DNA of 21,940 bases from a virus. This document shows, piece after piece, positions 1,093 through 20,507 of the stretch; the first letter of the stretch is position 1, and every line of letters begins with the position of its first letter. Where the stretch lies: the IMG/VR virus record IMGVR_UViG_3300043436_000848, positions 1 to 21,940 of that record, one strand, 5' to 3'. A model generated the notes under the pieces. The model saw only the letters and a list, made by a program, of their open reading frames with translations. It ran no database searches and was not told where the DNA came from. The position numbers and the translations under genes were made by a program.

Positions 1093-1350
1093 ATGGAATA
1101 TATCTTTTTAATTGCTTTGGGATGGTTTATACAAGAGTTTGAGCCGTTTAAATATTTAGCTGATTACATCTACACTAAATTAAAGCCTAACAGCCTTATT
1201 GAGTATGTCTTCGGCTCGTTGGAGTGTTGGCAATGCTGTACATTTTGGAGTGCCTTAGCTATTACTTGGTCCTTTGAAAAGGCGGTTGTAGCTTCCTTTA
1301 TTACTTTTGCCCTACAAATGCTACACGAAGGATGGATGCGCAGGAGATAA
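1093..1350 (+). CDS. Small membrane protein with Cys motif
   Basis: An 85-residue hydrophobic protein. Two or three membrane segments can be seen: about 2-18 (YIFLIALGWFIQEF), about 50-60 and about 62-80 (VVASFITFALQML). Between them is CWQCCTFWSALAITW, a CxxC-type pattern followed by FW that recalls small DUF1360-like membrane proteins of phages. It is the first gene of the operon behind the host-type promoter. Its end overlaps the next gene by 19 nt. Function unknown; the Cys cluster could bind metal or form disulphides. Confidence 0.65.
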   Translation: MEYIFLIALGWFIQEFEPFKYLADYIYTKLKPNSLIEYVFGSLECWQCCTFWSALAITWSFEKAVVASFITFALQMLHEGWMRRR

Positions 1351-1535
1351 GCCTATTTGAAACCCTTTACGACGAGTTTAACTCAGGCAAGGTTAATAAA
1401 GTGACCATTGTACGGGTGCGAGATGTTTATAACAAGTATGCAGATAAGCCCGTGAACTATTGCATGTGTTCGAGCGTTCAAAGACGAATATACGCTAAGG
1501 ACTTTTTAACGTGGTATGCGGAGTTTAATAGATAA
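1332..1535 (+). CDS. Hypothetical protein with CMCSS motif
   Basis: A 67-residue protein. The central sequence NYCMCSSVQRRIYAKDFLTWY (given in part) has two cysteines one residue apart, followed by a basic and aromatic stretch. The N-terminal part is helical. Similar short proteins are found next to terminase regions of Bacteroidetes phages, but I know of no function. The start at 1332 lies inside the previous gene, and the end overlaps the sigma-like gene by 20 nt, so the three genes are probably translationally coupled. Confidence 0.6.
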   Translation: MDAQEISLFETLYDEFNSGKVNKVTIVRVRDVYNKYADKPVNYCMCSSVQRRIYAKDFLTWYAEFNR

Positions 1536-2019
1536 GTTCTATACTGACAACTATACATTGTTGGTGAGTGCTGCGAAAAGACGAATAACGCAGTTAAAGA
1601 AATCTATTGAGCCCGAAAGCCTTGTTTCATCGTCCTATTTGTACTTAGTAGGTAAAGCGGACACAATCCAAGAAGAAGAAATTGAGCGTCTTGCCTTTGG
1701 GTTTATTTACTTTGAATTGATGCGATACAACTCACAAACGAATTTAAAGGAGCGGGTAAACTCAGTGGATTTAGAATTTGATATTTCAGACATGAATAAC
1801 CAATCGAACAATATACTACTTAAAATAGATGTAAGCGACTTTGAAAACACGTTGGATAGAGTAGATGCAATACTTTGGGGGGTATATTATAACAAGGGAA
1901 TAACTACAAAGCGAGATTTAGCGGACCATTTTAACATTGACCCGTCAAGTGCATTGATTTACATTAACGAATTGAAGCAAAAATTTAGAAATTATGTTGA
2001 AGATAAAAGAGAATTATGA
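1516..2019 (+). CDS. Sigma-factor-like transcription protein
   Basis: A 167-residue protein with the layout of a small sigma factor. The N-terminal helical part (about 8-80; SLVSSSYLYL, then IERLAFGFIYFELMRY) resembles sigma region 2. A linker follows. The C-terminal part (about 115-165) contains GITTKRDLADHFNIDPSSAL and INELKQKFRNYVED, a helix-turn-helix arrangement like region 4. It sits behind a host-type promoter and upstream of the terminase, where late-gene regulators are common. No other protein in the window looks like an RNA-polymerase-binding factor, so it is the best candidate to recognise the four TAACCA-N13-TTACTTAT elements. The assignment is by pattern; a general HTH regulator is the alternative. 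Confidence 0.6.
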   Translation: MRSLIDKFYTDNYTLLVSAAKRRITQLKKSIEPESLVSSSYLYLVGKADTIQEEEIERLAFGFIYFELMRYNSQTNLKERVNSVDLEFDISDMNNQSNNILLKIDVSDFENTLDRVDAILWGVYYNKGITTKRDLADHFNIDPSSALIYINELKQKFRNYVEDKREL

Positions 2020-2230
2020 AGATGTAACAATTGAATACTCATTGAATGGAGTTCGGGTTACGAAAAAACTTAAAGACATTACAGAACAGGAAATTGAATC
2101 GGCTGAGAAATGTGGGGTTCATTTGGCTAAGTACTTTGAAAAGACGGTTGAACCAACCGAAGAACCAACCGAACTACCAACTATAGCATACGAAGGTATA
2201 GAGGTTAAACCTAAGCGCAAAAGAAAATGA
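1994..2230 (+). CDS. Hypothetical acidic protein with basic tail
   Basis: A 78-residue protein. The N-terminal half alternates charged and hydrophobic residues (VTIEYSLNGVRVTKKLKDI), suggesting a small beta-alpha fold. A low-complexity linker follows with the repeated unit EPTEEPTELPT, and the tail is very basic (KPKRKRK). Such tails often contact nucleic acid. It overlaps the sigma-like gene by 26 nt, and its stop overlaps the next ATG (ATGA at 2227-2230). Function unknown. Confidence 0.6.
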   Translation: MLKIKENYEDVTIEYSLNGVRVTKKLKDITEQEIESAEKCGVHLAKYFEKTVEPTEEPTELPTIAYEGIEVKPKRKRK

Positions 2231-2397
2231 AAATTAGCAACGTATTCGCTTTTTTAGTCGCTTGCCTTACGTTCACCGCAGCGTTGAGTTTGATTTACCA
2301 CGAGACCGACTTAGTAATGACATTTTCGGGATGGTCACTTATAAGTTACATTTGTTACCTAATTGCCATAACGGGCGAAAACGAACACAATGGCTAA
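2227..2397 (+). CDS. Tiny two-helix membrane protein
   Basis: A 56-residue ORF that fills what would otherwise be a 159-nt gap. The translation starts MKISNVFAFLVACLTFTAAL, a clear hydrophobic segment, followed by a polar turn (YHETDLV) and a second hydrophobic segment (about 33-49, FSGWSLISYICYLIAI), with a polar end. It couples to its neighbours by ATGA upstream and an 8-nt overlap downstream. Two short membrane helices with a small loop could be a small inner-membrane or holin-like protein, but the position away from the lysis genes argues for an unknown role. Confidence 0.55.
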   Translation: MKISNVFAFLVACLTFTAALSLIYHETDLVMTFSGWSLISYICYLIAITGENEHNG

Positions 2398-2584
2398 TTA
2401 CTACCTACTCGACGCAGGGAAGAACATGACACGCTTTGCAATGGCTCTTGAAAGTGAACTAAAAGCCCATGAAGCCCATGTAGTGATGTATTTAACCGAT
2501 GTGGACGGATTGATGTGTTTAGAGGAAATAAGCGAAGATGAATTTTTAGACCATTATAGCAACAAAAAGACGAAAGAGAAATAA
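2390..2584 (+). CDS. Hypothetical small acidic protein
   Basis: A 64-residue protein with a predicted alpha/beta mix: MANYYLLDAGKNMTRFAMAL, a helix, a strand (HVVMYLTDVDG), then an acidic stretch (EEISEDEFLDHY). No motif is recognised. It sits directly before the small terminase gene with one intervening base, in the same operon, so it is likely expressed with the packaging genes. Confidence 0.55.
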   Translation: MANYYLLDAGKNMTRFAMALESELKAHEAHVVMYLTDVDGLMCLEEISEDEFLDHYSNKKTKEK

Positions 2585-2585
2585 T

Positions 2586-3023
2586 ATGGGAAAGCCTAAA
2601 TACATAGATACACCAGAAAGACTACTAGAGTTATTCAAAGACTACGTAAAGCACGAAGCAGATAACCCCATGTACAAAGTCGAGTATGTAGGTAAGGACG
2701 GAAGAATAGAAAAGACCCCACTACCAACCCCGATTACATTTGAGGGCTTTGAGTGCTACCTATTCGAGTTGGAAATAATTAACGATTTAGGGGATTACGC
2801 AAGTAATAAGGACGGGAGATATTCTGATTATGCCACCATCATCACGCATATTAGAAACCATTGCTTCGTTCACAACTTCAAAGGGGCAGCCGTTAAATTA
2901 TTTGACCCGAATTTGATTGCACGTAAACTCGGAATAAAAGACGGAACGGACGTAACTACGGGAGGTGACAAACTTAACCAACCAATCACGGTTAAGATAG
3001 TAAGCAATGGAGATGCAAATTAA
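2586..3023 (+). CDS. terS: Terminase small subunit, P22 gp3-like
   Basis: A 145-residue protein that matches in layout the DNA-packaging protein gp3 of phage P22: an N-terminal helical part (RLLELFKDYVKHEADNPMYK), a central variable stretch with PITFEGFECYLFE, and the C-terminal pattern GAAVKLFDPNLIARKLGIKDG, which parallels the P22 pattern GAAADLLNANIIARDLGLKE. In P22, gp3 forms a ring that recognises the packaging start site and regulates the large subunit. The usual partner lies close downstream, separated only by one tiny overlapping ORF. The family call rests on recalled similarity. The packaging (pac or cos) site itself cannot be identified here. Confidence 0.75.
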   Translation: MGKPKYIDTPERLLELFKDYVKHEADNPMYKVEYVGKDGRIEKTPLPTPITFEGFECYLFELEIINDLGDYASNKDGRYSDYATIITHIRNHCFVHNFKGAAVKLFDPNLIARKLGIKDGTDVTTGGDKLNQPITVKIVSNGDAN

Positions 3024-3168
3024 TATAATGTGCGCCAAGGTTGAAGAGTACATTTTTCAGCGTAAAGGCGTTAATGTAACTATTGACCGCTTACAAATGA
3101 TTGACCCCCGTCAGTTTTCGATGTTGGTGCAAGCCTACCAAATAGCAAATGGAAATACAAGCGACTAA
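3007..3168 (+). CDS. Tiny ORF bridging the terminase genes
   Basis: A 53-residue ORF (begins MEMQINIMCAKVEEYIFQRK) that starts inside the small terminase gene (17-nt overlap) and ends inside the large terminase gene (20-nt overlap). It exactly fills a 125-nt gap in a region where every other gene is packed the same way. The product is helical and moderately charged, with no recognised motif. A role in coupling translation of the two terminase subunits is possible. Support is positional only. Confidence 0.5.
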   Translation: MEMQINIMCAKVEEYIFQRKGVNVTIDRLQMIDPRQFSMLVQAYQIANGNTSD

Positions 3169-4297
3169 TATCTTCGCCCGTAATTGGGACGCACTAAACA
3201 GCGACAAACGTTTTATCATAAATCAGGGAGGGTCAAGGTCAAGTAAGACATATTCGCTTTGTCAAATGATTATCGTTTACTGCGTTCAAAACCCTAACAA
3301 AGTGGTAAGTATAGTTCGTAAAACCTTCCCAGCGTTGAGGGCTACGGTTATGCGGGACTTCTTCGAGATTATGAAGGACTTGGAGATTTACGAAAAGTCG
3401 AACCATAATATGTCAGAGAATATATACTTCTTTCCTAATGGGAGTATAGTCGAGTTCTTTTCAGTCGATAATGAGCAGAAAATACGTGGTAGAAAAAGGG
3501 ATTTAGGGTGGTGCAATGAAGCTAATGAGTTATGGTTTGAGGACTTTCAACAGTTAAACATGAGAACCGAAGAAAAGTTAATCTTTGACTACAACCCGTC
3601 GGATAGTTCAAGTTGGCTATACAAGTTACCGCCTGAAGAAAGCGTACTAATCAAGTCTACATACCGTGACAATCCTTTTTTGCCCGAAAGCATTAAACGA
3701 CAAATTGAAGACCTTAAACGAACCGACGAAGCCTTATATCAAATTTACGCACTTGGTGAAAAGGCAATAAGCAAATCTAACATATACAACAACTGGACGT
3801 TCTTAGGTAGGAAGCCTCAACGCTTTCAGTCCTACGTTTACGGGCTTGACTTCGGTTACAATCACCCCACCGCTTTAATAAGGGTCTATTGGTCCGACGG
3901 TGACATTTGGATAGAACCTGTAATTTACGAAAGCTACTTGACCACGTCCGAACTAATCGAAAAGTTTAAGCAACTGGAGATTGAAAAGACGGTAGATATT
4001 TTAGCGGATTACTCACGCCCTGAAATAATAGCCGAACTTCAAAACGCAGGTTACAACGTGAACAACGCTAACAAGGCGGTTAAGATGGGTATAAACTTCG
4101 TCAAGACCTTTGGGGTTTATTGTCAGGAAGACGAAGCCTTAAAAAAGGAATACGAAAACTACAAATGGAAAAAGGTAGGGGACATCATTACGGAGGAACC
4201 CGTTAAGCTATACGACGATGCAATGGATGCCGTAAGGTATGCTACAACCTACATTAAAGAGATGTACTATACCGACGACCAATACTTCGCCTTCTAA
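3149..4297 (+). CDS. terL: Terminase large subunit
   Basis: A 382-residue packaging motor protein of the PBSX/Terminase_3 type. The N-terminal ATPase domain has Walker A GGSRSSKT (27-34), a Walker B region near DLGWCNEANE (118-127, with the catalytic Glu probably 124 or 127) and a motif III-like IFDYNPS (145-151). The C-terminal RNase H-fold nuclease has the expected acidic residues: D234 in YGLDFGY, D287 in ILADYS, and D356/D357/D360 in LYDDAMDAVRY. Both domains are complete, though total length is at the short end for the family. It pumps DNA into proheads through the portal and cuts the concatemer. It ends this operon. Confidence 0.93.
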   Translation: MEIQATNIFARNWDALNSDKRFIINQGGSRSSKTYSLCQMIIVYCVQNPNKVVSIVRKTFPALRATVMRDFFEIMKDLEIYEKSNHNMSENIYFFPNGSIVEFFSVDNEQKIRGRKRDLGWCNEANELWFEDFQQLNMRTEEKLIFDYNPSDSSSWLYKLPPEESVLIKSTYRDNPFLPESIKRQIEDLKRTDEALYQIYALGEKAISKSNIYNNWTFLGRKPQRFQSYVYGLDFGYNHPTALIRVYWSDGDIWIEPVIYESYLTTSELIEKFKQLEIEKTVDILADYSRPEIIAELQNAGYNVNNANKAVKMGINFVKTFGVYCQEDEALKKEYENYKWKKVGDIITEEPVKLYDDAMDAVRYATTYIKEMYYTDDQYFAF

Positions 4298-4330
4298 TAA
4301 CCACAAATTACAATCCTTACTTATTAGGGT
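4298..4330 (+). promoter_or_regulatory. Bipartite late-promoter-like element, copy 1
   Basis: TAACCA at 4298-4303, a 13-nt spacer, TTACTTAT at 4317-4324, then TAGGGTA running into the ATG at 4331. It is identical in both boxes and spacing to three other intergenic copies (8413, 10220, 12774). It precedes the tail-tip unit. It does not match TAnnTTTG, so it probably uses a phage factor. The short distance to the ATG implies a leaderless or nearly leaderless mRNA. Confidence 0.7.
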
Positions 4331-5737
4331 ATGGCAATGACACTAATAGCAGCACCGCAGGAATTTACACCCGCATTTAATCCGTGTAAGTTTATATTCA
4401 ACTCGACGAATAATAACAACGAAGGGTTTAGATACATATTTGATATTTACATACAAGGCACGGCAAACAAAATAGCTGAGTACCGAGTACTTCCAACGTA
4501 CGGGACGGGTTTCGGTGAAATCGATTTAAGTAAGTTACTAAGTTCAAAAGTAGCCCCCGATTTTCAACCTACAAACTATTCAGAAAGTGACACGCCCATT
4601 TCACGATTTAACTATGATGTAAAGGTAGGCGAAGAGTACATAGTAACTTACACTTACTTAGCTAACTTAGTCGATAACGGCGGGAACGTTAAGATAACAC
4701 CAACGGTAGCACACACGTTTCAGGTAGGCGACCAAGTTGTAATGAATGCAGGAACTAACACTTTAATCACGGGGCTTTGGACGGTGGTGGCAATCACGGG
4801 AACTACCGACTTTACTATTTCGGCTTTGTGGTCCAACGTGACGAACCCCGCAGCAGATGGGACGGTAACTTATGCGGACAAGAGAAAGACGGTTATAAGG
4901 GACATTGAAAGCGAATTAAACTATTGGGTATTTAACGGGGCGGTGTCATGGACTAAATTTAATGGGTATAATCTTAATCAATATTTATTAAACAATTCAA
5001 GTGCTTTATTACTTACGTCTTTTCCGTATAGGGACATGACAATAACACCTAACCAAGAACTTTGGTTTAATGGCTTTAACAATGCCGTGACGGGTCGGAT
5101 GGTATTTAACAACTCAAACGGCGACTCATTTTATTACGATGTTACGAATACTGAAATAACTACCCAGTTATGCGTGGCAAGTCCTTTTTTAAATTTGACG
5201 GTGCTTAGTGGTACGTTGCCTTTGATTAAACCTAATACAACGTCTTATGAAGTTTATTTTATTGACGATACACCACCTACCGACTCGCAAACGTACACTT
5301 TCAATATTGACCAACGCTGTGCAATCAATGACTATTATTTAGTGTTTTTGGATAGGATGGGTTCTTGGGGTTCGTTTGCATTTCAACTTAGAGCATACGA
5401 AAACGGGACAAGCGCAAAGCAATCATTTAACAAAGATGTACAAGGTTTTGTAAGTGGTGGTGAATGGTCATACGAAAGTTATGAAGCGGGGCTTACCACG
5501 TATTCAAGTACGGTGGAAAAGACGTATACGCTAAACAGTAATTGGATGAGCGAAGACATGGCGGTTTACTTTCAGGAACTCATTACATCGCCTGTAGTGT
5601 ACTTTTGGGACGGTGCTAAATACTTGGCTTGTATAATTCAAGAAACTTCGTTTGAAGTGGAAAAGCAACGCAATAAGAATCTAATAAAAAAGACGGTCAC
5701 AATTAAGCTGGCAAACCAAGACAAGGTAAATATATGA
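4331..5737 (+). CDS. Tail-tip / minor tail structural protein
   Basis: A 468-residue, beta-rich virion protein. The start (MAMTLIAAPQEFTPAFNPCKFIFNST, in part) is typical of a large uncharacterised tail protein family of Bacteroidetes phages. Residues about 112-183 form what looks like an inserted domain: GNVKITPTVAHTFQVGDQVV, then TGLWTVVAITGTTDFTISAL and GTVTYADKRK, a small beta-barrel pattern also found elsewhere as a repeat in phage tail proteins. It is first in a two-gene unit behind late-element copy 1 and is coupled (ATGA) to the next large tail gene. By context it is a distal tail or baseplate component. Exact role unknown. Confidence 0.65.
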   Translation: MAMTLIAAPQEFTPAFNPCKFIFNSTNNNNEGFRYIFDIYIQGTANKIAEYRVLPTYGTGFGEIDLSKLLSSKVAPDFQPTNYSESDTPISRFNYDVKVGEEYIVTYTYLANLVDNGGNVKITPTVAHTFQVGDQVVMNAGTNTLITGLWTVVAITGTTDFTISALWSNVTNPAADGTVTYADKRKTVIRDIESELNYWVFNGAVSWTKFNGYNLNQYLLNNSSALLLTSFPYRDMTITPNQELWFNGFNNAVTGRMVFNNSNGDSFYYDVTNTEITTQLCVASPFLNLTVLSGTLPLIKPNTTSYEVYFIDDTPPTDSQTYTFNIDQRCAINDYYLVFLDRMGSWGSFAFQLRAYENGTSAKQSFNKDVQGFVSGGEWSYESYEAGLTTYSSTVEKTYTLNSNWMSEDMAVYFQELITSPVVYFWDGAKYLACIIQETSFEVEKQRNKNLIKKTVTIKLANQDKVNI

Positions 5738-8415
5738 ATGTAAAAATACAACTTGAAACGGGCTATCTTGACGTAAAGGATGGCACGGCTTTCCCTTTGA
5801 ATTTTGGTGTTGCTGATATTCGGGACGTGTCTAAAAAGTCGGGGGCGTTTTCAAAGACGATTACTTTAACGGGTACGGCTAACAATCACAATTTACTGAA
5901 TCACTATTACGACGTAAATATTCAGGCGGGAACGTTTAACATAAACACCTTAACGAGATGCTCAGTTATTCAGAACGGCATTCCTGTTTTAGAGTCGGGT
6001 TACCTTCAATTAATTTCTGTAAACAAAAGTCAGGTCACAGCCGATTACGAGAATGAAGTTGAATACGAGGTACTAATAAAAGACGAATCTTCTGACTTCT
6101 ATACTAAGTTAGGAAATAAGGAACTTACTGACTTGGATTTTAGCGACCTTAACCACGAATATCGGGCGGTTAATGTAGTCGATACTTTTGCTAACACGCA
6201 AGGCGACGGGTATAAATACTTAGTACCGTTTAAGGACTCAAACGAATATTTTTTGCAGGAGATGAAACCTGCTATTTATGCCAAGACTTATTTCGATAGG
6301 ATATTTAGTAACGCAGGATTTAGCTATACATGGGACACGCTTACGGCTGCGCACTTTGATAAACTTATAATACCTTTTAACGGTGACGGTCCGTTAGTAG
6401 ATTATAGCGACTATTTAGTAGAGGCAAATAATGCATTAACTTTAAGCGGTCCAAATGCTACGTTTACAGATGATATTACAGGTTGGACTGAGGTCACGGA
6501 TGCGCAAAGTTTATTTAACCCAACTACGGGAACTTATACCCCACCTTTCAACTTATTAGGCAATGACAATGTAAGTCTACAAATTACGTTTAATGCAGAT
6601 GTTAATTTAATAAACACTTCAGCAGGCACGGCGTACTATGTTGATATGTCATCTTCGATTATAAATTATTTTAGTAGTTATTTGCCAAATCTAAAAGTTA
6701 CAAAAAACGGTAACATTATAATAAACGTTTCAAGTGCGTCTGCTCCTATATTAGTTAATGAAGGTGACACGCTGGCAGTTGGTACAAATACAATAGGGAA
6801 TTTTGATATAACAACTACGGTTTTAATAGGCAATGCAATTTTAACGGATGCCATAAATATTTTAGGCGGTCTTGGTGTTACTTTAAACAATAACCTTCAA
6901 TGGTTAAACGGACCAACAACGGCAGGCAGCCCTGTAACGGTTACGAGTGAAATTGTATTTAATAGTATAAATATTAGATTACTTCCGTCTTCGTCAATAG
7001 TTGGTTACGGGGCTTTGATTGATATGAATAACGCCGTCCCGAACAAGGTCAAACAAGCGGATTTTATCAAGTCAATTTTTACGATGTACAATTTGTATGT
7101 CGAGCAGGACACCGATGTAGCAAACAACCTCATCTTAATGCACCGTGACGACTATTACGATAGTGGTGCAGAGTTGGACTGGACGTATAAACTTGCAAAG
7201 GACAAAGAACAATCTTTGAACTTCCTGCCTGAGTTGAGCGCAAAGAAATTGATTCTGACTTATAAGAATGATTCTGATGACCCGAACAAAATATATTACG
7301 AAGCTACCAAAGAAATATACGGGCAACTTGAATTTATATTCGACAATGAATACGTCAAAGGAATAGACACAAAAGAAATTCTATTTTCACCAACTCCCGT
7401 TACTAAAAGCACGTTTAATGCGTACCTTCCGATGCTTTCAGGTGCGCCAAAAGTAAACATTAGAATATTACACGATGGAGGTGAGGGCATTTGTGATTCT
7501 TATAACATTTATAACTATGGAAACACGGGAGAGATTGGCATAACTACCTACCCAATATTGCACCATTGGGACAACCCAATAACCCCGACCTTTGACATTC
7601 TATTTGCACAGCCTGACTATATGTTTTATGAAGGGTATTCGATTACGAATAACAACCTTTACAACCTATATTGGAGACGTACTGTAAATCAGATTAACGT
7701 AGGCAAAATGCTCACGGCTTACTTCAATCTAAAAGAAGATGATATTCACGGCTTAAAGCTAAATTCTAAAATCCGCATTGATAATAGTTGGTGGACCATT
7801 AATAAAATAATTGATTACGACTGCAACGCTAACAACTTAACGAAAGTTGAGTTAATGAGTGCAGACACGGAAATAGATTTGGCACCATTCAAGAAGCAAA
7901 TTGTAATACCGACTACAACAGGAGACACGGCAAGCCATACGGGTAGTATACATTGGGATAATACTTTTGTAGGTAACGTTGTGGCGAGTACTTCGGTTGC
8001 TGATGTGTACGGGCGTGGTAACGTAATACAGCCAAACGTAAACGGAATCGTTATAGGCAATAATAGGGTACTTGACCAAACGGGAATAAGTACCGAAAGG
8101 ATAACGGCAGACGTTGGTGACATTAAGTCTTTAAGTTTGTCGGGTGGTATTCAATACCCGTATAAAAAAACAATCGTAAATTATTATATAACTTCAAACG
8201 ATTATTTTATACTTTGTACAGGTGTTAATATTTATTTACCCCCTTCAAATAAAGACAATAAAGGTCAAGTTTATGTTATTAAAAACGAAAGTGGAACAAG
8301 TGTGGTTTATCCTTTTGGCTCAAATCTCATTGATTTAGTAACTTCAATTACCTTATTAGCGTCTAATAGCGTTACTTTAATTTCTAATGGGGGCACGGGT
8401 TGGTATATTATTTAA
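5734..8415 (+). CDS. Large tail-tip protein with fibre-like C-terminal domain
   Basis: An 893-residue protein. The first ~130 residues (LNFGVADIRDVSKKSGAFSK, then TITLTGTANNHNLLN) resemble N-terminal tail-tip domains that assemble on the tail end. The middle contains a DWTYKLAKDKEQSLNFLPELSAKK-type stretch (in part) and many aromatic beta strands. From about residue 700 there is a Gly/Asn/Thr-rich stretch (VYGRGNVIQPNVNGIVIGNN). The last ~85 residues (KKTIVNYYITSNDYFILCTG ... GQVYVIKNESGTSVVYPFG) match a common fibre-tip module. That final module is much more AT-rich (about 29% GC in 8161-8400) than the rest, which suggests swapping. It probably combines hub and host-contact functions. Confidence 0.65.
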   Translation: MNVKIQLETGYLDVKDGTAFPLNFGVADIRDVSKKSGAFSKTITLTGTANNHNLLNHYYDVNIQAGTFNINTLTRCSVIQNGIPVLESGYLQLISVNKSQVTADYENEVEYEVLIKDESSDFYTKLGNKELTDLDFSDLNHEYRAVNVVDTFANTQGDGYKYLVPFKDSNEYFLQEMKPAIYAKTYFDRIFSNAGFSYTWDTLTAAHFDKLIIPFNGDGPLVDYSDYLVEANNALTLSGPNATFTDDITGWTEVTDAQSLFNPTTGTYTPPFNLLGNDNVSLQITFNADVNLINTSAGTAYYVDMSSSIINYFSSYLPNLKVTKNGNIIINVSSASAPILVNEGDTLAVGTNTIGNFDITTTVLIGNAILTDAINILGGLGVTLNNNLQWLNGPTTAGSPVTVTSEIVFNSINIRLLPSSSIVGYGALIDMNNAVPNKVKQADFIKSIFTMYNLYVEQDTDVANNLILMHRDDYYDSGAELDWTYKLAKDKEQSLNFLPELSAKKLILTYKNDSDDPNKIYYEATKEIYGQLEFIFDNEYVKGIDTKEILFSPTPVTKSTFNAYLPMLSGAPKVNIRILHDGGEGICDSYNIYNYGNTGEIGITTYPILHHWDNPITPTFDILFAQPDYMFYEGYSITNNNLYNLYWRRTVNQINVGKMLTAYFNLKEDDIHGLKLNSKIRIDNSWWTINKIIDYDCNANNLTKVELMSADTEIDLAPFKKQIVIPTTTGDTASHTGSIHWDNTFVGNVVASTSVADVYGRGNVIQPNVNGIVIGNNRVLDQTGISTERITADVGDIKSLSLSGGIQYPYKKTIVNYYITSNDYFILCTGVNIYLPPSNKDNKGQVYVIKNESGTSVVYPFGSNLIDLVTSITLLASNSVTLISNGGTGWYII

Positions 8416-8445
8416 CCAATTAAAACACGAATTACTTATAAGGAT
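8413..8445 (+). promoter_or_regulatory. Bipartite late-promoter-like element, copy 2
   Basis: TAACCA at 8413-8418, a 13-nt spacer, TTACTTAT at 8432-8439, then AAGGATA running into the ATG at 8446. It overlaps the stop codon of the preceding tail gene and heads the single-gene unit 8446-8919. Confidence 0.7.
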
Positions 8446-8919
8446 ATGCAAGGCTCATTCAAAATAAAATACAAGACCCGTTATAAGCTACAAAAAGCTA
8501 TACAACAAACAATCATGAGTATAGGTTTTAATGAGTCAGGTGAGGGCACGGGGACTATGCATGATTCAATAAGAATATCGGCTGCAACTGGGGACCTTAA
8601 CCAATTGTACGTTACGATTAATGCTATTTACTATTATATGTTTTTGGACAAGGGAGCGAAACTTACAAACGGTGGTATAATCAATCCTTATTTCATAACT
8701 CAAAAGGCTATCGAGTCGCCGATGGGTCAGCAATTTATTTCGGATGCCGTAGGTGAGTACTTAGTTTGGATGCAGGAAAACTACCCTATTCTTGACGTGG
8801 CAACAATTAACGTAACGCCTGACAATATCAAACTAAACATTCAATATAATTTGTTTGGAGCGGATGGGGGCAAATGGAATGGTACTTTTGATTACGCCTC
8901 TAATTGGTATAATTGGTAA
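8446..8919 (+). CDS. Putative head-tail joining protein, HK97 gp10-like
   Basis: A 157-residue protein. The pattern GTGTMHDSIRISAATGDLNQ, then LYVTINAIYYYMFLDKGAK, resembles the HK97-gp10/tail-completion family, where a basic N-terminal helix is followed by a 'DSI ... VxxxAxYYxxxxxGT' strand pair. Such proteins join neck and tail. It is a monocistronic unit with its own late element, ending tail-to-tail with the minus-strand pair with no spare base between the two stop codons. The family call is moderate; the C-terminal half is unassigned. Confidence 0.55.
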   Translation: MQGSFKIKYKTRYKLQKAIQQTIMSIGFNESGEGTGTMHDSIRISAATGDLNQLYVTINAIYYYMFLDKGAKLTNGGIINPYFITQKAIESPMGQQFISDAVGEYLVWMQENYPILDVATINVTPDNIKLNIQYNLFGADGGKWNGTFDYASNWYNW

Positions 8920-9657
8920 CTACGCCTTGTTTAGTTGTAGTTCTTCGACCATTGACAGCATATTAAACACGAACACCAACGGAAGGTCTGTAACCTCATC
9001 AATTTTAGTTAGGTCTTGATTTGATAAGTCGTAAAGTAATTTTTCCCACGACCATTTGTTAAATACTTTTTCTTCGGCTTCGGCTTTGATGTCTTCGGGG
9101 TCAAGTTCGACTTCTTCGTCTTCGTCAATTACTGGATTGAATAGGTTTTCGTATCGTTGCTTAAAGTCATTTGAATAAAGAGCGTAATTATTTACAGCCC
9201 CAAATACTTCGTTTATACTTACGTCTTGAAACGTATCTTTACGGCTCATTATACTATACGAATACGGCTCAAAAACAAGGTTGCCCCATTCGTCACGCTT
9301 CCATCGTTTATATAATATACTAAGTAAAAGCGTAAAGTTTTGAACGTTCTGACTAATATAGTGTTCTAAGTCTATGAATTCCCCTAAGGTGAGCGCATCC
9401 AACGGCTTTAACATAAAACCTTTCACGGCTTGTTTAGGCTTATTAGACGGCTCACGCTTAATAAAAGATACTTCACTGGCAAGGTCAATGAGTTCTTCGG
9501 GAGAAAGCTCTTCCAACTCTTCGGGGTCTGTATCGGAGAGGATAGAAATAGCTTCTAAGGTGTGCAAAAACACGCTGTTAAATTCGTTAGGGTCTATCGA
9601 ATTAAGTTCGACCCATTGGCTAACCGTTACTTCGTTCCAGCTCTTCGGTAGTTTCAT
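8920..9657 (-). CDS. Minus-strand protein, tail-assembly-chaperone candidate (second)
   Basis: A 245-residue acidic protein that starts at ATG 9657 (a TTG at 9660 is also possible). The N-terminus (KLPKSWNEVTVSQWVELNSI) and the first product's ELTVEQFDHLNKI share a '(S/N)EVTVxQwxxL' pattern, suggesting related domains. The C-terminus (WSWEKLLYDLSNQDLTKIDE, then LPLVFVFNMLSMVEELQ) is helical and similar to tail-chaperone ends. It overlaps the upstream gene by 38-41 nt in the +1 (equivalently -2) frame, as in tail-chaperone pairs made by programmed frameshift. There is no slippery site I would vouch for. It may be an ordinary overlapping gene. Confidence 0.55.
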   Translation of the reverse strand: MKLPKSWNEVTVSQWVELNSIDPNEFNSVFLHTLEAISILSDTDPEELEELSPEELIDLASEVSFIKREPSNKPKQAVKGFMLKPLDALTLGEFIDLEHYISQNVQNFTLLLSILYKRWKRDEWGNLVFEPYSYSIMSRKDTFQDVSINEVFGAVNNYALYSNDFKQRYENLFNPVIDEDEEVELDPEDIKAEAEEKVFNKWSWEKLLYDLSNQDLTKIDEVTDLPLVFVFNMLSMVEELQLNKA

Positions 9658-10177
9658 CAACTTTCTTTTCGGTTATCTTGGTTATCTTTTGTAAAATATC
9701 GAGAATATACGGGAATGCAATTTCTGCGGTTTGTTTCTTGAATAGATTAACCTTTAATTTCAGGTGCGCAGGTGCGTAGTGTTCAGTTCTTGTAAGGTCC
9801 GTTCGTTTGAATAAGATTGAAAGCGTTTGAGCCGTAAAGTTTTCGTCTTGACTTCGGTAGATTTTCTCAATCATTCCTAAATCTTTAACCCCTATTTGTT
9901 CATTTGCCTCATAAGTGTATTTATCAATGACAATTTGCGTCACCTTTTCAGTGCTTGGTATGTCGGACTTGTTGAACTCTTTAATGTAGTTAGCGAACTC
10001 GTCAAGTTCCATTGAATCGAACGCCTTTTCTTCAACACCTAAGTAGATAAATTTTTCAATCCACTTTTCAATGGTATCTAATTCGGTGTTATTCTCGATT
10101 TTGTTGAGGTGGTCGAACTGCTCAACAGTTAGCTCGTTTAGTTGGTTTGGAATTTCGGTCCCGTAAATTTGTATCAT
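9620..10177 (-). CDS. Minus-strand protein, tail-assembly-chaperone candidate (first)
   Basis: A 185-residue acidic helical protein: MIQIYGTEIPNQLNELTVEQ, then FDHLNKIENN and IEKWIEKFIYLGVEEKAFDS. It has no signal peptide, membrane segment or enzyme motif. The tail assembly chaperone idea rests on its pairing and overlap with the gene that follows, its acidic helical make-up, and its position among tail genes that otherwise lack a chaperone. Such proteins bind the tape measure before tail-tube polymerisation. It is read from a host-type promoter facing away from the protease/capsid unit, so its timing may differ from that of the other virion genes. Confidence 0.55.
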   Translation of the reverse strand: MIQIYGTEIPNQLNELTVEQFDHLNKIENNTELDTIEKWIEKFIYLGVEEKAFDSMELDEFANYIKEFNKSDIPSTEKVTQIVIDKYTYEANEQIGVKDLGMIEKIYRSQDENFTAQTLSILFKRTDLTRTEHYAPAHLKLKVNLFKKQTAEIAFPYILDILQKITKITEKKVDETTEELERSNG

Positions 10178-10192
10178 TGCTTAGATTTTAAT

Positions 10193-10226
10193 CAAAGGTA
10201 AAAAATAATGTTGAAAAATTAACCAA
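10193..10226 (-). promoter_or_regulatory. Host-type promoter for the minus-strand pair
   Basis: On the minus strand, TACCTTTG (10200 down to 10193) matches TAnnTTTG, with TTG at 10226-10224 about 23 nt upstream, the long end of the range for Bacteroidetes -33/-7 spacing. The ATG of the first minus-strand gene is 15 nt downstream. The TTG overlaps, on the other strand, the TAACCA box of late-element copy 3, so the two promoters would compete. Confidence 0.5.
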
Positions 10227-10253
10227 AAATTTTAGGCATTACTTATGTAGGTA
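10220..10253 (+). promoter_or_regulatory. Bipartite late-promoter-like element, copy 3
   Basis: TAACCA at 10220-10225, a 13-nt spacer, TTACTTAT at 10239-10246, then GTAGGTA, with the ATG at 10254. It heads the protease/capsid/tail-tube unit. The TAACCA box overlaps the -33 element of the divergent minus-strand promoter. Confidence 0.7.
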
Positions 10254-11207
10254 ATGGATGGACTACCGACTTACAAAATTACAATAGACGAAGCATACAA
10301 CGACGGGACGGAACCGCTTGGAGTAGATGCAATAGCGTTCACCGCAAACCCTGCAGTTTTAGTTAAGGGCGTAGCGTTTAAGTCACAAGCTAAAAGCCAC
10401 TTCGCAGACGAAAAGAAATATCGTATCACAGCACCTGCCATGATTCCTATGGACATCTATCGACGTGATGACGAGATGGGTGAGTACTATGTACAATTTA
10501 GCGAAACCGAAATAGACACTATTTTCAAAGACTTCATGCTGAATCTGAATAATAGAAATTTATTCAACTTAGAACACGAGGGCGACAAGATAGTGCCTGC
10601 GTATATTCTTGAAGCGTGGCTTGTAGATAACCCCGAAGCGGACAAGGCTAAAAGTACTTTCGGTATTTCAGTACCTAAAGGGACTTTAATGGTCACGGCT
10701 CAAATCACGGACACGGACTACTATAATAAGTTAGTTGAAGCAGGTCAAGTTGGTTTCTCTATTGAGGGCTTTCTTGGTCTTAAATTAAGCAACCAAATAA
10801 ATACAAATAATATGTTACCAGACGGCACACACACGCTCGAAGATGGAACGGTTATCGTTATCAAAGACGGTCAAATCGTAGAAGTTCAAGAGCCAATGGC
10901 TGAGGAACAAGTAATGGAAGTTGAAGCGTCTACGGAAGTGGAAATGGCGGACACAACCGAAGTAACCGAAGAAACCGTAAAGGAAGAGGTTGTTGAAGTT
11001 GAAGCAGCTATTGACCCTGCAGCGGATGCGGAGGCTATCTTAGCAATCGTTAGCCCTTTATTAGAGCAACGTATTTCTGAGGTGTTACAAGTTATCGCAG
11101 ACCTAAAGAATGAACTAACTGAAACGGAAGAAGCTGCACCCGTTGAAGAAATCAAAATGACAGCGGCGCAAAAGTTTAACCAAGTAATTGACTTCTTAAA
11201 AAAATAA
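10254..11207 (+). CDS. Prohead protease fused to scaffold domain (XkdF/S78_2-like)
   Basis: A 317-residue protein. Residues about 55-175 resemble the XkdF-like putative serine protease domain (Peptidase_S78_2): NLFNLEHEGD, with a likely catalytic His108, then FGISVPKGTLMVTAQITD and GQVGFSIEGFLG, with a likely nucleophile Ser169. Residues about 205-300 are extremely rich in Glu, Val and Thr and look like a scaffold with coiled-coil character (EAILAIVSPLLEQRISEVLQ). Protease and scaffold in one chain, placed two bases before the major capsid gene, suggests self-cleavage during prohead maturation. ATG 10254 fits the late element; an in-frame alternative is not needed. Confidence 0.8.
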   Translation: MDGLPTYKITIDEAYNDGTEPLGVDAIAFTANPAVLVKGVAFKSQAKSHFADEKKYRITAPAMIPMDIYRRDDEMGEYYVQFSETEIDTIFKDFMLNLNNRNLFNLEHEGDKIVPAYILEAWLVDNPEADKAKSTFGISVPKGTLMVTAQITDTDYYNKLVEAGQVGFSIEGFLGLKLSNQINTNNMLPDGTHTLEDGTVIVIKDGQIVEVQEPMAEEQVMEVEASTEVEMADTTEVTEETVKEEVVEVEAAIDPAADAEAILAIVSPLLEQRISEVLQVIADLKNELTETEEAAPVEEIKMTAAQKFNQVIDFLKK

Positions 11208-11209
11208 AG

Positions 11210-12151
11210 ATGGCTAAAAAGTACAAATTCGATTTGACAGTAGACGCAAGTGCGTTACTTCAAGCAAACCCAAGTGAATATTATTCGCTTCTTTACGGAA
11301 TGGAAAACGCAGTAACTAATTACCGTGTTTTACCGGGAATTAAAAACAAAACTAAAATCGCTACGGTTGTTTTCGCAAACGTACTTGCTGAGGCAGGATG
11401 TGATTTTAACGCTCAAGACGGTACTGTTTCTGCAGTTGAAGTAGATGTTTGTGCATTGACTTCACAAGCGTCTGTTTGTCAGTACGACCTTGAACAATCA
11501 TGGTTGGCTTTGGAAATGGCTAAAGGTTCTAACTCAGACTTTTCGGTTGCTTCTTTCATGAACTTCTTTTGGGGTCAAATGGCAAAGAAAGCACACCAAG
11601 AATTGGCTTTGTTGATGTGGCAAGGTGACATAGCAGCAGAAGGTGCTTTAAATCTTTGTAATGGTTGGTTAAAGCGTTTGTGTGACAACTCTGACTATAT
11701 TAATGGAACAGTTCCTGTTGGTGGGTTTACATCTTCAAACATTCTTGCAAACGGTTTTGCACAAGCACTTGGTTTGGCTACATCTGAAATGTTGGTGAAC
11801 CCTGCAAATATGCAGTTTAAAGTTTCCCCTGACGTTGCTGCTTACTACCGTATCGCTACAGCGTCACAAAACAACGTAACAAACGTAACTGAAGGTTTGG
11901 CTTTGACTTACTTGGATATTCCAGTTGTTGTTGAGTACGGACTTCCTGCTAACTCAATTATCCTTTCTGACTATACTAACTTTATCTATGCTTTGGATAT
12001 GGAAGGTGATGTAGATAACTTGCAAATTGTAGACTTCAGCAAAACTACTTTGGACCGTCGTATCGGTGCAAGAGCAGACTTCAAAGCAGGTTTCTATACT
12101 GTGAATGACACGCAAATCGTTTGGGTAGGTGGTGACGCTTATTGCGACTAA
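11210..12151 (+). CDS. Major capsid protein
   Basis: A 313-residue protein placed directly after the protease/scaffold and before a strong terminator, as expected for the main shell protein. It contains a long helix-like stretch (FMNFFWGQMAKKAHQELALL), an E-loop-like early part (FANVLAEAGCDFNAQDGTVS) and a P-domain/A-domain-like beta-rich C-terminal half ending DTQIVWVGGDAYCD, consistent with the HK97 fold. Codon use shifts here to TTG, GCT, GTT and ACT and away from the ACG and CGG common in neighbours, as in highly expressed genes. The leader is A-rich (AAAAAATAAAG before ATG). The exact capsid family is not assigned. Confidence 0.8.
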   Translation: MAKKYKFDLTVDASALLQANPSEYYSLLYGMENAVTNYRVLPGIKNKTKIATVVFANVLAEAGCDFNAQDGTVSAVEVDVCALTSQASVCQYDLEQSWLALEMAKGSNSDFSVASFMNFFWGQMAKKAHQELALLMWQGDIAAEGALNLCNGWLKRLCDNSDYINGTVPVGGFTSSNILANGFAQALGLATSEMLVNPANMQFKVSPDVAAYYRIATASQNNVTNVTEGLALTYLDIPVVVEYGLPANSIILSDYTNFIYALDMEGDVDNLQIVDFSKTTLDRRIGARADFKAGFYTVNDTQIVWVGGDAYCD

Positions 12152-12169
12152 TCAATTTATTTAGATAGT

Positions 12170-12196
12170 AGGGGGTTTAACCGCCCCCTTTTTTTT
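12170..12196 (+). terminator. Terminator after major capsid gene
   Basis: AGGGGG (12170-12175) pairs with CCCCCT (12184-12189) around an 8-nt loop, and the T-run extends to 12196. Partial read-through would supply the tail-tube gene downstream, which has no clear promoter of its own. Confidence 0.85.
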
Positions 12197-12217
12197 AACT
12201 TTTAAACACTAAATAAA

Positions 12218-12724
12218 ATGGCTTGTAGTACATTAACAACAATTCTAAAGGGTTGCGATAACAATATAGGAGGGATTACTTCAATTTATATCAATGACAT
12301 GGATAATATTACAGGTCCAATCGTTGAGGCTAACTGGATTATTTCTGACTTTGGTACACTTGCAGACCCTTTCATTCCTTTCGAGTTCAGACGTAACACG
12401 GGAATGTTTACCGAAGAGGCGGCTATTGACCTTGTAAACGGTTCTTCATTTATTACGCAAACAGTTACTTTGATGTTTCACCGACGTGAAGCAGCTAAGT
12501 CTAAGTCTATTAAAATACTTGGCGAAGGTCAAAGAGACTTGGCACTTGTAGTTGGTGACGCAAACGGAAAGTATTGGTATTTTCCAAACGCACAATTAAC
12601 TGCGGTTGCTGAAGGGTCTGGAACGGCTAAAGCCGATGGTTCTAAGTACTCAATTACGTTTGTAGCTGAAAACGAAAACCTTGCTTTTGAAGTTGCAGCG
12701 GCTGAAATTCCTAACATTATCTAA
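12218..12724 (+). CDS. Putative major tail (tail-tube) protein
   Basis: A 168-residue, beta-rich protein with well-spread hydrophobic residues: SIYINDMDNITGPIVEANWI, then SSFITQTVTLMFHRREAAKS, KSIKILGEGQRDLALVVGDA and DGSKYSITFVAENENLAFEV. Alternating strands, a long middle loop and the final 'Y-x-I-T-F-x-A-E-N' strand are typical of tail-tube proteins. Small size, position after the major capsid gene, its own terminator and codon use like the capsid gene all point to an abundant virion protein. A head decoration protein is the main alternative. Confidence 0.65.
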   Translation: MACSTLTTILKGCDNNIGGITSIYINDMDNITGPIVEANWIISDFGTLADPFIPFEFRRNTGMFTEEAAIDLVNGSSFITQTVTLMFHRREAAKSKSIKILGEGQRDLALVVGDANGKYWYFPNAQLTAVAEGSGTAKADGSKYSITFVAENENLAFEVAAAEIPNII

Positions 12725-12743: not shown

Positions 12744-12770
12744 AAGGGGTGGCTTCGGTCACCCTTTTTT
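12744..12770 (+). terminator. Strong terminator with UUCG tetraloop
   Basis: GGGTGGC (12747-12753), loop TTCG, GTCACCC (12758-12764), then six T residues. Flanking A/T pairs extend the stem. The C(UUCG)G tetraloop is unusually stable. It closes the capsid/tail-tube unit immediately before late-element copy 4. Confidence 0.9.
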
Positions 12771-12773
12771 ATT

Positions 12774-12809
12774 TAACCAACTTTTCGAATGGTTACTTAT
12801 TAAGGTAGT
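12774..12809 (+). promoter_or_regulatory. Bipartite late-promoter-like element, copy 4
   Basis: TAACCA at 12774-12779, a 13-nt spacer, TTACTTAT at 12793-12800, then TAAGGTA and GT before the ATG at 12810. It heads the longest unit, from here to the terminator at 21892. It directly follows a strong terminator, which supports independent transcription. Confidence 0.75.
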
Positions 12810-13157
12810 ATGATATACTTAGAAAAAAATTCACTCAATATTTTTGCCTTAACGCTTACAGAAAGTGCGACTATTTCGAGTCCTGTTTGGTTGTTTAAAT
12901 TCGTGTGGGAAATGGACGTAACACAAGACCCTATTTATTGGGTGGGTGTGGACCATTCAAGTTACCCAAACCGTTATAATTTATTCCGTTTAGAAGAGGG
13001 CGTAGAGGTGACGTTTAGAATAGGGCAATACAGATATTTTGTTTACGAAAGTCCCGACCCTATTGCAGTGGACGAAAACACCAACGAACTTGGTTTAACA
13101 CTTGTTGAAGAAGGGCGTATGGTGGTCGAAGGTGTATCAAATTCAATTTATGACTAA
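12810..13157 (+). CDS. Hypothetical virion-associated protein before portal
   Basis: A 115-residue beta-rich protein: MIYLEKNSLNIFALTLTESA, TISSPVWLFKFVWEM, then YNLFRLEEGVEVTFRIGQYR, FVYES and GLTLVEEGRMVVEG. This alternation is common in a family of short virion proteins of Bacteroidetes phages, known to me only as uncharacterised. The stop overlaps the portal start by one base (TAATG), so the two are translated together. A small adaptor or decoration role is an inference. Confidence 0.6.
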   Translation: MIYLEKNSLNIFALTLTESATISSPVWLFKFVWEMDVTQDPIYWVGVDHSSYPNRYNLFRLEEGVEVTFRIGQYRYFVYESPDPIAVDENTNELGLTLVEEGRMVVEGVSNSIYD

Positions 13158-20049: not shown

Positions 20050-20507
20050 TGAAGTATTTATTTCTCCTATTATTGGTGTGTAGCTGCTCGGTCAATTACC
20101 ACCTCAACAAAGCGTTTAAAAAGGGTTACCGTTGCGACACTATTACGGACACTATTCGAGTAGTTAAAGTGGATAGTTTCTTAGTAGTTAAACACGACAC
20201 GACCTATTGGGAAAAAATAATAACGTCAAAAGATACTATTATAAAGTACAAGACTTCCTACATACCAAAAACACGCTATGAAATTAGATTCGATTATAGA
20301 CGTTTTAACGATAGTTTACAGTCAATTCGATTAATGTATAAAGACAGCCTAAGATATGCGCTTAAAACGGCTAGAAATGATATTAAACGTGAACGCATAA
20401 CACAACGCAAGTCACCACTAAACCAAGTAAAGAACTATTTACTTATTTCATCCTTTATTCTATTCATAATATTGATGTTTATTTTGTTGCGAAAAATTGT
20501 ATTTTAG
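20049..20507 (+). CDS. Putative unimolecular spanin (u-spanin)
   Basis: A 152-residue protein with a hydrophobic N-terminal signal (MKYLFLLLLVCSCSVNYH) ending in a Cys-rich site resembling a lipobox. The best lipidated Cys is 13 (V-C-S-C), which is not perfectly canonical. A beta/charged periplasmic part with repeated D-T-I units follows (about 30-70), then helices rich in Arg/Lys (about 80-120), and finally a membrane segment about 129-147 (YLLISSFILFIILMFILL) with a basic end. Outer-membrane lipoprotein signal plus C-terminal membrane helix in one chain is the layout of T1 gp11-type unimolecular spanins, which fuse inner and outer membranes. It sits between holin and endolysin. Confidence 0.65.
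   Translation: MKYLFLLLLVCSCSVNYHLNKAFKKGYRCDTITDTIRVVKVDSFLVVKHDTTYWEKIITSKDTIIKYKTSYIPKTRYEIRFDYRRFNDSLQSIRLMYKDSLRYALKTARNDIKRERITQRKSPLNQVKNYLLISSFILFIILMFILLRKIVF
20420..20446 (+). promoter_or_regulatory. Degenerate late-element copy upstream of endolysin
   Basis: AAACCA (20420-20425; one mismatch to TAACCA), a 13-nt spacer, TTACTTAT (20439-20446). Spacing is identical to the four intergenic copies, but it lies inside the spanin gene, 74 nt before the endolysin ATG, and lacks the downstream RGRTA part. It may be a weak internal promoter or chance. Confidence 0.3.

Follow-up and report, generated by a model that had tools for sequence, protein, structure and literature searches.

A 21.9-kb virus record from a tailed phage (IMGVR_UViG_3300043436_000848, positions 1–21,940; all 21,940 nt are hereafter called the window) very probably encodes the phage's own sigma factor in ORF 1516–2019, judging from sequence comparisons and structural models. 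We estimate the probability at about 0.9 that this protein is a two-domain, ECF-type phage sigma factor, which would be made by the host transcription machinery and would then switch the polymerase to four late elements in the same record. The observations behind this reading are a sigma-like fold, late elements with conserved spacing, the universal co-occurrence of gene and element among the relatives, and their co-variation between lineages.

The genes on the + strand are arranged as early genes (to approximately position 1036), a hairpin, a host-type promoter, ORF85, ORF67, the 167-aa gene, small genes and the two terminase subunit genes, the last of which ends at position 4297. The terminator-like hairpin with a T-run, located immediately upstream of the sigma operon (1021–1044), is a consensus match only, and terminator-like sites overall in the window showed no excess over the shuffle expectation. 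The candidate promoter of the sigma/terminase operon (TTTG-N18-TATATTTG, 1046–1075) has the pattern of Bacteroidetes primary-sigma promoters, consistent with the proposal in the preliminary description that the sigma gene is expressed from a host-type promoter. The first gene of the operon, ORF85 (1093–1350), encodes a putative membrane protein with a CWQC motif, and ORF67 (1332–1535), which overlaps the start of the sigma gene, encodes a small CxC (CxCS) protein; both are conserved in 105 of 108 relatives. Farther downstream are the genes of the small terminase subunit, TerS (2586–3023; phrog_606, 1.6e-15), and the large subunit, TerL (3149–4297; phrog_2, 3.3e-37; Terminase_3, 5.8e-28), the latter being the last gene ahead of the first late element. 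Many TerL relatives sit on contigs of approximately 29–30 kb; among annotated terminases, the closest (31–33% identity) belong to Parabacteroides, Phocaeicola and Flavobacterium phages. The promoter type and this TerL similarity are the two features that point to a Bacteroidetes-type host; TerL searched against 84,980 species gave neither a prophage nor a host genome.

The 167-aa ORF was present as reported earlier, with an ATG start on the + strand, and the region 2-like and region 4-like helical parts previously noted in it were borne out by an AlphaFold2 model (mean pLDDT, 77). The predicted helices span residues 2–27, 33–46 and 53–77, followed by residues 106–112, 115–126, 132–139 and 143–165. 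This corresponds to a sigma2 domain at approximately residues 1–77, a linker modeled with low confidence at residues 74–103, and a sigma4 domain at approximately residues 104–165, of which residues 143–165 form the putative recognition helix. The layout was the same in the AlphaFold2 model of L073, a relative sharing 24% identity with the window protein. ECF (group IV) sigma factors have sigma2, a short linker and sigma4, but no sigma1.1 or sigma3, and the models of both members have this architecture: a three-helix N domain, a flexible linker and a four-helix HTH C domain.

When these two models were searched against the PDB using Foldseek, the named matches were overwhelmingly sigma factors, mostly of the ECF type, and no match reached E ≤ 0.001 for either model; the VIA Z values of 7–9 were modest for a helical protein. 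Whole-chain rmsd values were large in the PDB superpositions of both models because neither model fixes the position of one domain relative to the other. Single domains superposed well: the C domain superposed on region 4 of SigR (2.4 Å over 65 residues) and on region 4 of E. coli sigmaE with its –35 DNA (2.9 Å over 66 residues), and the N domain superposed on the N-terminal domain (region 2) of SigR (2.5 Å over 69 residues) and on RpoE (3.2 Å over 78 residues). In a fold search of a viral library, most of the named matches were phage sigma or ECF factors, including the ECF sigma of phage GAP52. The structure comparison suggested in the preliminary description thus returned a sigma-like prediction, and a non-sigma fold did not emerge.

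The relationship to sigma factors was exposed by the family alignment only, and not by single-sequence searches. The window protein alone gave no convincing family match in Pfam or PHROGs, and tblastn against 50,697 phage records was without a match, as were tblastn searches with two of its relatives; no sequence link to the phage sigma factors gp47 and gp36 appeared in these searches. Homologues were located upstream of TerL in the viral collection and 40 were aligned; 16 of these matched the NCBIfam sigma70-ECF model TIGR02937 at E ≤ 1 (best, 4.5e-5), and nine matched phrog_351, a sigma factor family of PHROGs (best, 1.2e-5). In a genome scan, one relative aligned with positions 4–161 of the 165 positions of the ECF model (7.2e-6), scoring 20 bits against a curated cut-off of 42.9 bits that no family member exceeded. 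We call the protein ECF-like because its predicted fold is of the ECF type but this curated sequence cut-off is not reached. A profile search of PDB sequences gave chance matches only, an hhalign comparison of the family with E. coli RpoE alone gave no significant result, and the only HMMER alignment of the family to E. coli RpoE, a weak one, fell in region 2.2. The earlier statement that the window encodes no other candidate polymerase-binding factor holds in general, with the reservation that ORF 447–677 gave a weak Cro/C1-HTH match in the part of the ORF/library pairs searched.

The four promoter-like elements of the preliminary description are real: TAACCA-N13-TTACTTAT occurs as an exact match with identical spacing at four positions, all on the + strand. 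Element A (4298–4324) lies 6 nt upstream of the ATG at 4331, element B (8413–8439) lies 6 nt upstream of the ATG at 8446, element C (10220–10246) precedes the gene at 10254 and the 313-aa gene at 11210, and element D (12774–12800) precedes the genes at 12810, 13157 (portal) and 14985 (tape measure). Element D is adjoined on its 5′ side by a terminator-like hairpin (12744–12767, + strand). With up to two mismatches allowed, the window contained six matches, compared with a mean of 0.56 in shuffled sequences, and none of 100 shuffles reached six. The two beyond the exact copies, at 1797 and 20420, fall inside ORFs: that at 1797–1823, with two mismatches, lies in the sigma gene and recurs in relatives of the window lineage, and was discounted as well-conserved coding sequence, and that at 20420 was absent from the relatives listed and was also rejected. 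The putative late promoters precede operons with portal, tape measure and further virion genes, and are confined to late operon starts rather than present at every gene. A scan for the window pattern across the viral collection gave many single chance matches; the loci with at least two ATG-proximal copies numbered nine, all in the phage group of the window. Promoters of the E. coli sigma70 type were not above chance in the window.

Some other features of the late region were also observed. Two – strand genes (8920–10177) lie between elements B and C in this otherwise + strand region, and the intergenic sequence at 10178–10253 contains a – strand TACCTTTG box that resembles the host-type –7 element. 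Between the 313-aa gene at 11210 and the 168-aa gene at 12218, a strong hairpin with a T-run (12160–12200) has no late element behind it, and a hairpin like it recurs upstream of the equivalent gene in many relatives.

Element variants were then read in the records of 34 relatives at the equivalent late-operon starts. Their general form is AAC-N16 followed by a –10 part, and the 16 nt after AAC are kept almost everywhere. All lineages examined have the AAC core at their late operon starts, with a TAC variant at some sites in one lineage. The version in the window lineage is AACC..TACTTA/T, and those in other lineages are AACAA..TACAATTA, AACTA..ACCAAGTT, AACA..CATTAT, AAC..AATATAG, AACA..TATTAT, AACA..TATTCT, AAC..ACAATAT, (A/T)AC..ACATTATAAG and AACA..GCAATATAAG. 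Each version occurs at three to five equivalent operon starts and is altered in concert within a genome; in G030, an identical A-to-C change in the –10 part is seen at all four sites. The patterns of a genome's own lineage mostly gave three to six ATG-proximal matches per genome, compared with approximately 0–0.07 expected, and few matches in other lineages; these patterns were written after viewing the data, and the comparison is a description of consistency rather than an independent discovery test. In two lineages (G015 and G022), the 3′ end of the sigma gene also carries an element, immediately upstream of the next ORF, possibly providing feedback onto the downstream genes, including the terminase.

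The sigma gene was found within 4.5 kb upstream of TerL in 163 of 179 TerL loci (including duplicates of the same contigs; the 161 proteins correspond to 108 distinct sequences). The remaining 16 loci end too close to TerL, and the gene was present in all 163 loci with enough upstream DNA. In this co-occurrence check, which had also been proposed earlier, no relative kept the element without the gene, and no second sigma-like gene was seen among profile matches across the 179 loci.

Element divergence was correlated with sigma divergence (r = 0.77). The partial correlation between element and sigma given TerL was 0.54, compared with 0.14 between element and TerL given sigma (permutation P = 0.0005), values that rest on perhaps 8–10 independent changes in a few lineages, with Mantel-type P values that ignore phylogeny. 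After controlling for sigma, the partial correlations with the element were –0.12 for TerS, –0.10 for ORF85 and –0.09 for ORF78, which served as controls of comparable divergence from the same operon. The sole control gene that nearly matched sigma was ORF67 (r = 0.74; partial correlation after sigma, 0.19). These results suggest that the divergence of the element follows the sigma-like protein rather than the terminase or most neighboring genes. ORF67 and ORF85 are conserved neighbors of the sigma gene, and ORF67 is a possible sigma partner or anti-sigma factor.

Some residues also differ with the type of element. An IKxxxxW motif in the third helix (a region 2.3/2.4-like part) is present in lineages with ATA-type –10 parts and absent from window-type lineages. 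Position 147, in the recognition helix, is L or Y in proteins that go with AACC. It is F in the lineage whose element is AACTA-ACCAAGTT and W in that with AACAA-TACAATTA; elsewhere it is mostly H. Position 147 and the IKxxxxW motif may be paired with particular letters of the element, a correspondence drawn from few independent changes.

Evidence from the relatives also bears on the promoters used by the two gene classes. In 62 of 104 relatives, the orthologous first gene was preceded by the pattern TA..TTTG, compared with an occurrence in 4.7% of random 75-nt windows, and a stricter two-box host pattern was found upstream of the sigma gene in 40 of 151 loci. At the late sites, the host –7 box (TAnnTTTG) was found in 0 of 104, which argues against the late elements being Bacteroidetes primary-sigma promoters (TTTG/TAnnTTTG). 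The host-type promoter of the sigma operon, together with late sites without TA..TTTG, suggests that the host polymerase makes the sigma factor and terminase, and that the sigma-loaded polymerase makes the virion gene products. The two-step programme put forward earlier, with sigma as the reader of the late elements, is accordingly well supported by comparison (fold, co-occurrence, co-variation and the lack of a host –7 box). The host polymerase with its own sigma would transcribe the operon at 1093–4297 from the TTTG/TAnnTTTG promoter, and the phage sigma thus made would bind the host core polymerase. At each of the four late operon starts, the –35 part with its AAC would then be read by the recognition helix of sigma4, and the –10 part, which differs by lineage, by sigma2, directing transcription to the virion genes. 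Core binding, promoter activity, the temporal order of the two steps and the residue–base contacts of the phage sigma are all predictions of this scheme.

The protein might alternatively be a sigma4-like HTH activator or an RNAP-appropriating co-factor that aids the host holoenzyme at the late elements, without replacing the host sigma. Its C-terminal part does give weak HTH matches (HTH_24, MarR and UPF0122), the NCBIfam search also returned RinA-like activator matches, and ORF67 could act as a partner. However, this is improbable given that the N-terminal three-helix domain superposes on sigma2 of SigR and RpoE, as described above, that the ECF models match across both domains, that no late site has the host –7 box, and that the –10 part varies between lineages, which is incompatible with a host sigma.

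We regard it as quite unlikely that the elements are read by another phage protein (ORF67, or a regulator encoded outside the window) and that the sigma-like protein has its role elsewhere. ORF67 is just as universal and tracks the element, but most of the signal of each neighbor tested disappears once sigma is controlled for, no other sigma-like profile match occurred in the 179 loci, and the two-part layout of the elements, in which an AAC –35 core is followed by a –10 block immediately ahead of the TSS region, is that of a sigma-type target. The near-fixed distance of the elements directly upstream of start codons might also suggest translation-start or other conserved non-promoter signals, the resemblance to sigma being incidental. 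This can hardly be reconciled with elements that occur only at late operon starts, that have two parts separated by a constant 16-nt spacer, that change together from one lineage to the next, and one of which adjoins a terminator hairpin on the 3′ side of the latter.

If the elements are read by the phage sigma as late promoters, their position has a consequence for the mRNAs. The AAC-to-ATG distance was 29–35 nt in 96 of 104 late sites, and exactly 30 nt in 40 of the 97 distinct sites listed. With only a few nucleotides between the end of the –10 part and the ATG, late transcription is predicted to start at or near the AUG. In phages 7-11 and phiEco32, transcription starts 6–9 bp from the promoter element (PMC8948821); if this distance applies, late transcription would begin at the A of the ATG or a few nucleotides away from it. 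The late mRNAs should thus be leaderless or nearly so, and the ATG is located 5–14 nt farther downstream of the element in some lineages, so that very short leaders would also occur. In Flavobacterium psychrophilum, leaderless mRNAs account for 5.5% of those with mapped starts (PMC9723704). In L088, L083 and their relatives, a host-type TAnnTTTG box lies approximately 4 nt upstream of the ATG of the ORF85 equivalent, a placement from which leaderless transcripts might arise outside the late class as well. A broader proposal, for which we consider the chances even, is that the whole phage group expresses its virion genes from leaderless or near-leaderless mRNAs with the promoter fused to the start codon at a fixed distance (30–35 nt from AAC to ATG in most cases), the sigma factor setting the start of both transcription and translation; the approximately 10 lineages would then form an orthogonal sigma/promoter series, with ORF67 as a possible dedicated partner.

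The protein is identified by no public phage record examined (tblastn), nor by Pfam or PHROGs, so this uncultured phage group lacked a recognised transcription switch; a literature search found no paper describing this sigma family or its promoters. With these pairs, one can test how the specificity of an ECF sigma and that of its promoters shift together at several sites while function is kept. They likewise open to testing leaderless late mRNAs in phages of a phylum without Shine-Dalgarno signals, where such mRNAs are a small minority, and could serve as orthogonal expression parts for Bacteroidetes.

Among known systems, bacterial ECF sigma factors (E. coli RpoE, Streptomyces SigR and Mtb SigH/SigL) likewise consist of sigma2, a linker and sigma4 only, and their domains superpose on those of the models. 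The sigmaE-type –35 sequence GGAACTT contains an AAC core, as does the –35 part of the elements described here. ECF sigma factors are commonly, though not universally, controlled by a cognate anti-sigma factor or another signal. The phage family differs from them in its very low identity, its scores below the curated ECF cut-off, its different –10 parts and, so far, the lack of an identified anti-sigma gene. The top structural match for both models was the guide-RNA-directed sigma of an RNA-guided transcription complex (PDB 9n9q); the likeness is one of sigma domains only, with no sign of an RNA-guided partner in the window group.

Phage phiEco32 encodes the middle/late sigma gp36, which uses tAATGTAtA promoters (PMC8948821). 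The window protein is predicted to act similarly in redirecting the host core to non-early genes, but gp36 has no region 4 homologue and a single-element promoter, unlike the window protein with its clear sigma4-like domain and –35 part. The late sigma of phage 7-11, SaPh711_gp47, uses GTAAtg-(16)-aCTA promoters before late genes; phiEco32 and 7-11 have different sigmas and promoters at corresponding positions, more such pairs have been predicted, and GAP52 is grouped with 7-11 (PMC8948821). The present system resembles that of 7-11 in its region 4-bearing phage sigma, probably made initially from host-sigma promoters, and in its putative bipartite late promoters with a 16-nt spacer ahead of late genes. 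As between 7-11 and phiEco32, promoter positions are conserved among the relatives while promoter sequence and sigma differ. Unlike the window group, 7-11 has gammaproteobacterial hosts, a sigma of another lineage and eight promoters with another consensus, whereas the window group has approximately 10 lineage-specific variants with elements placed against the ATG. Phage-encoded late sigma factors, as in 7-11 and phiEco32, are thus already known; new here are an unannotated family in Bacteroidetes-type phages, approximately 10 naturally diverged sigma/promoter pairs, and a promoter positioned close to the ATG.
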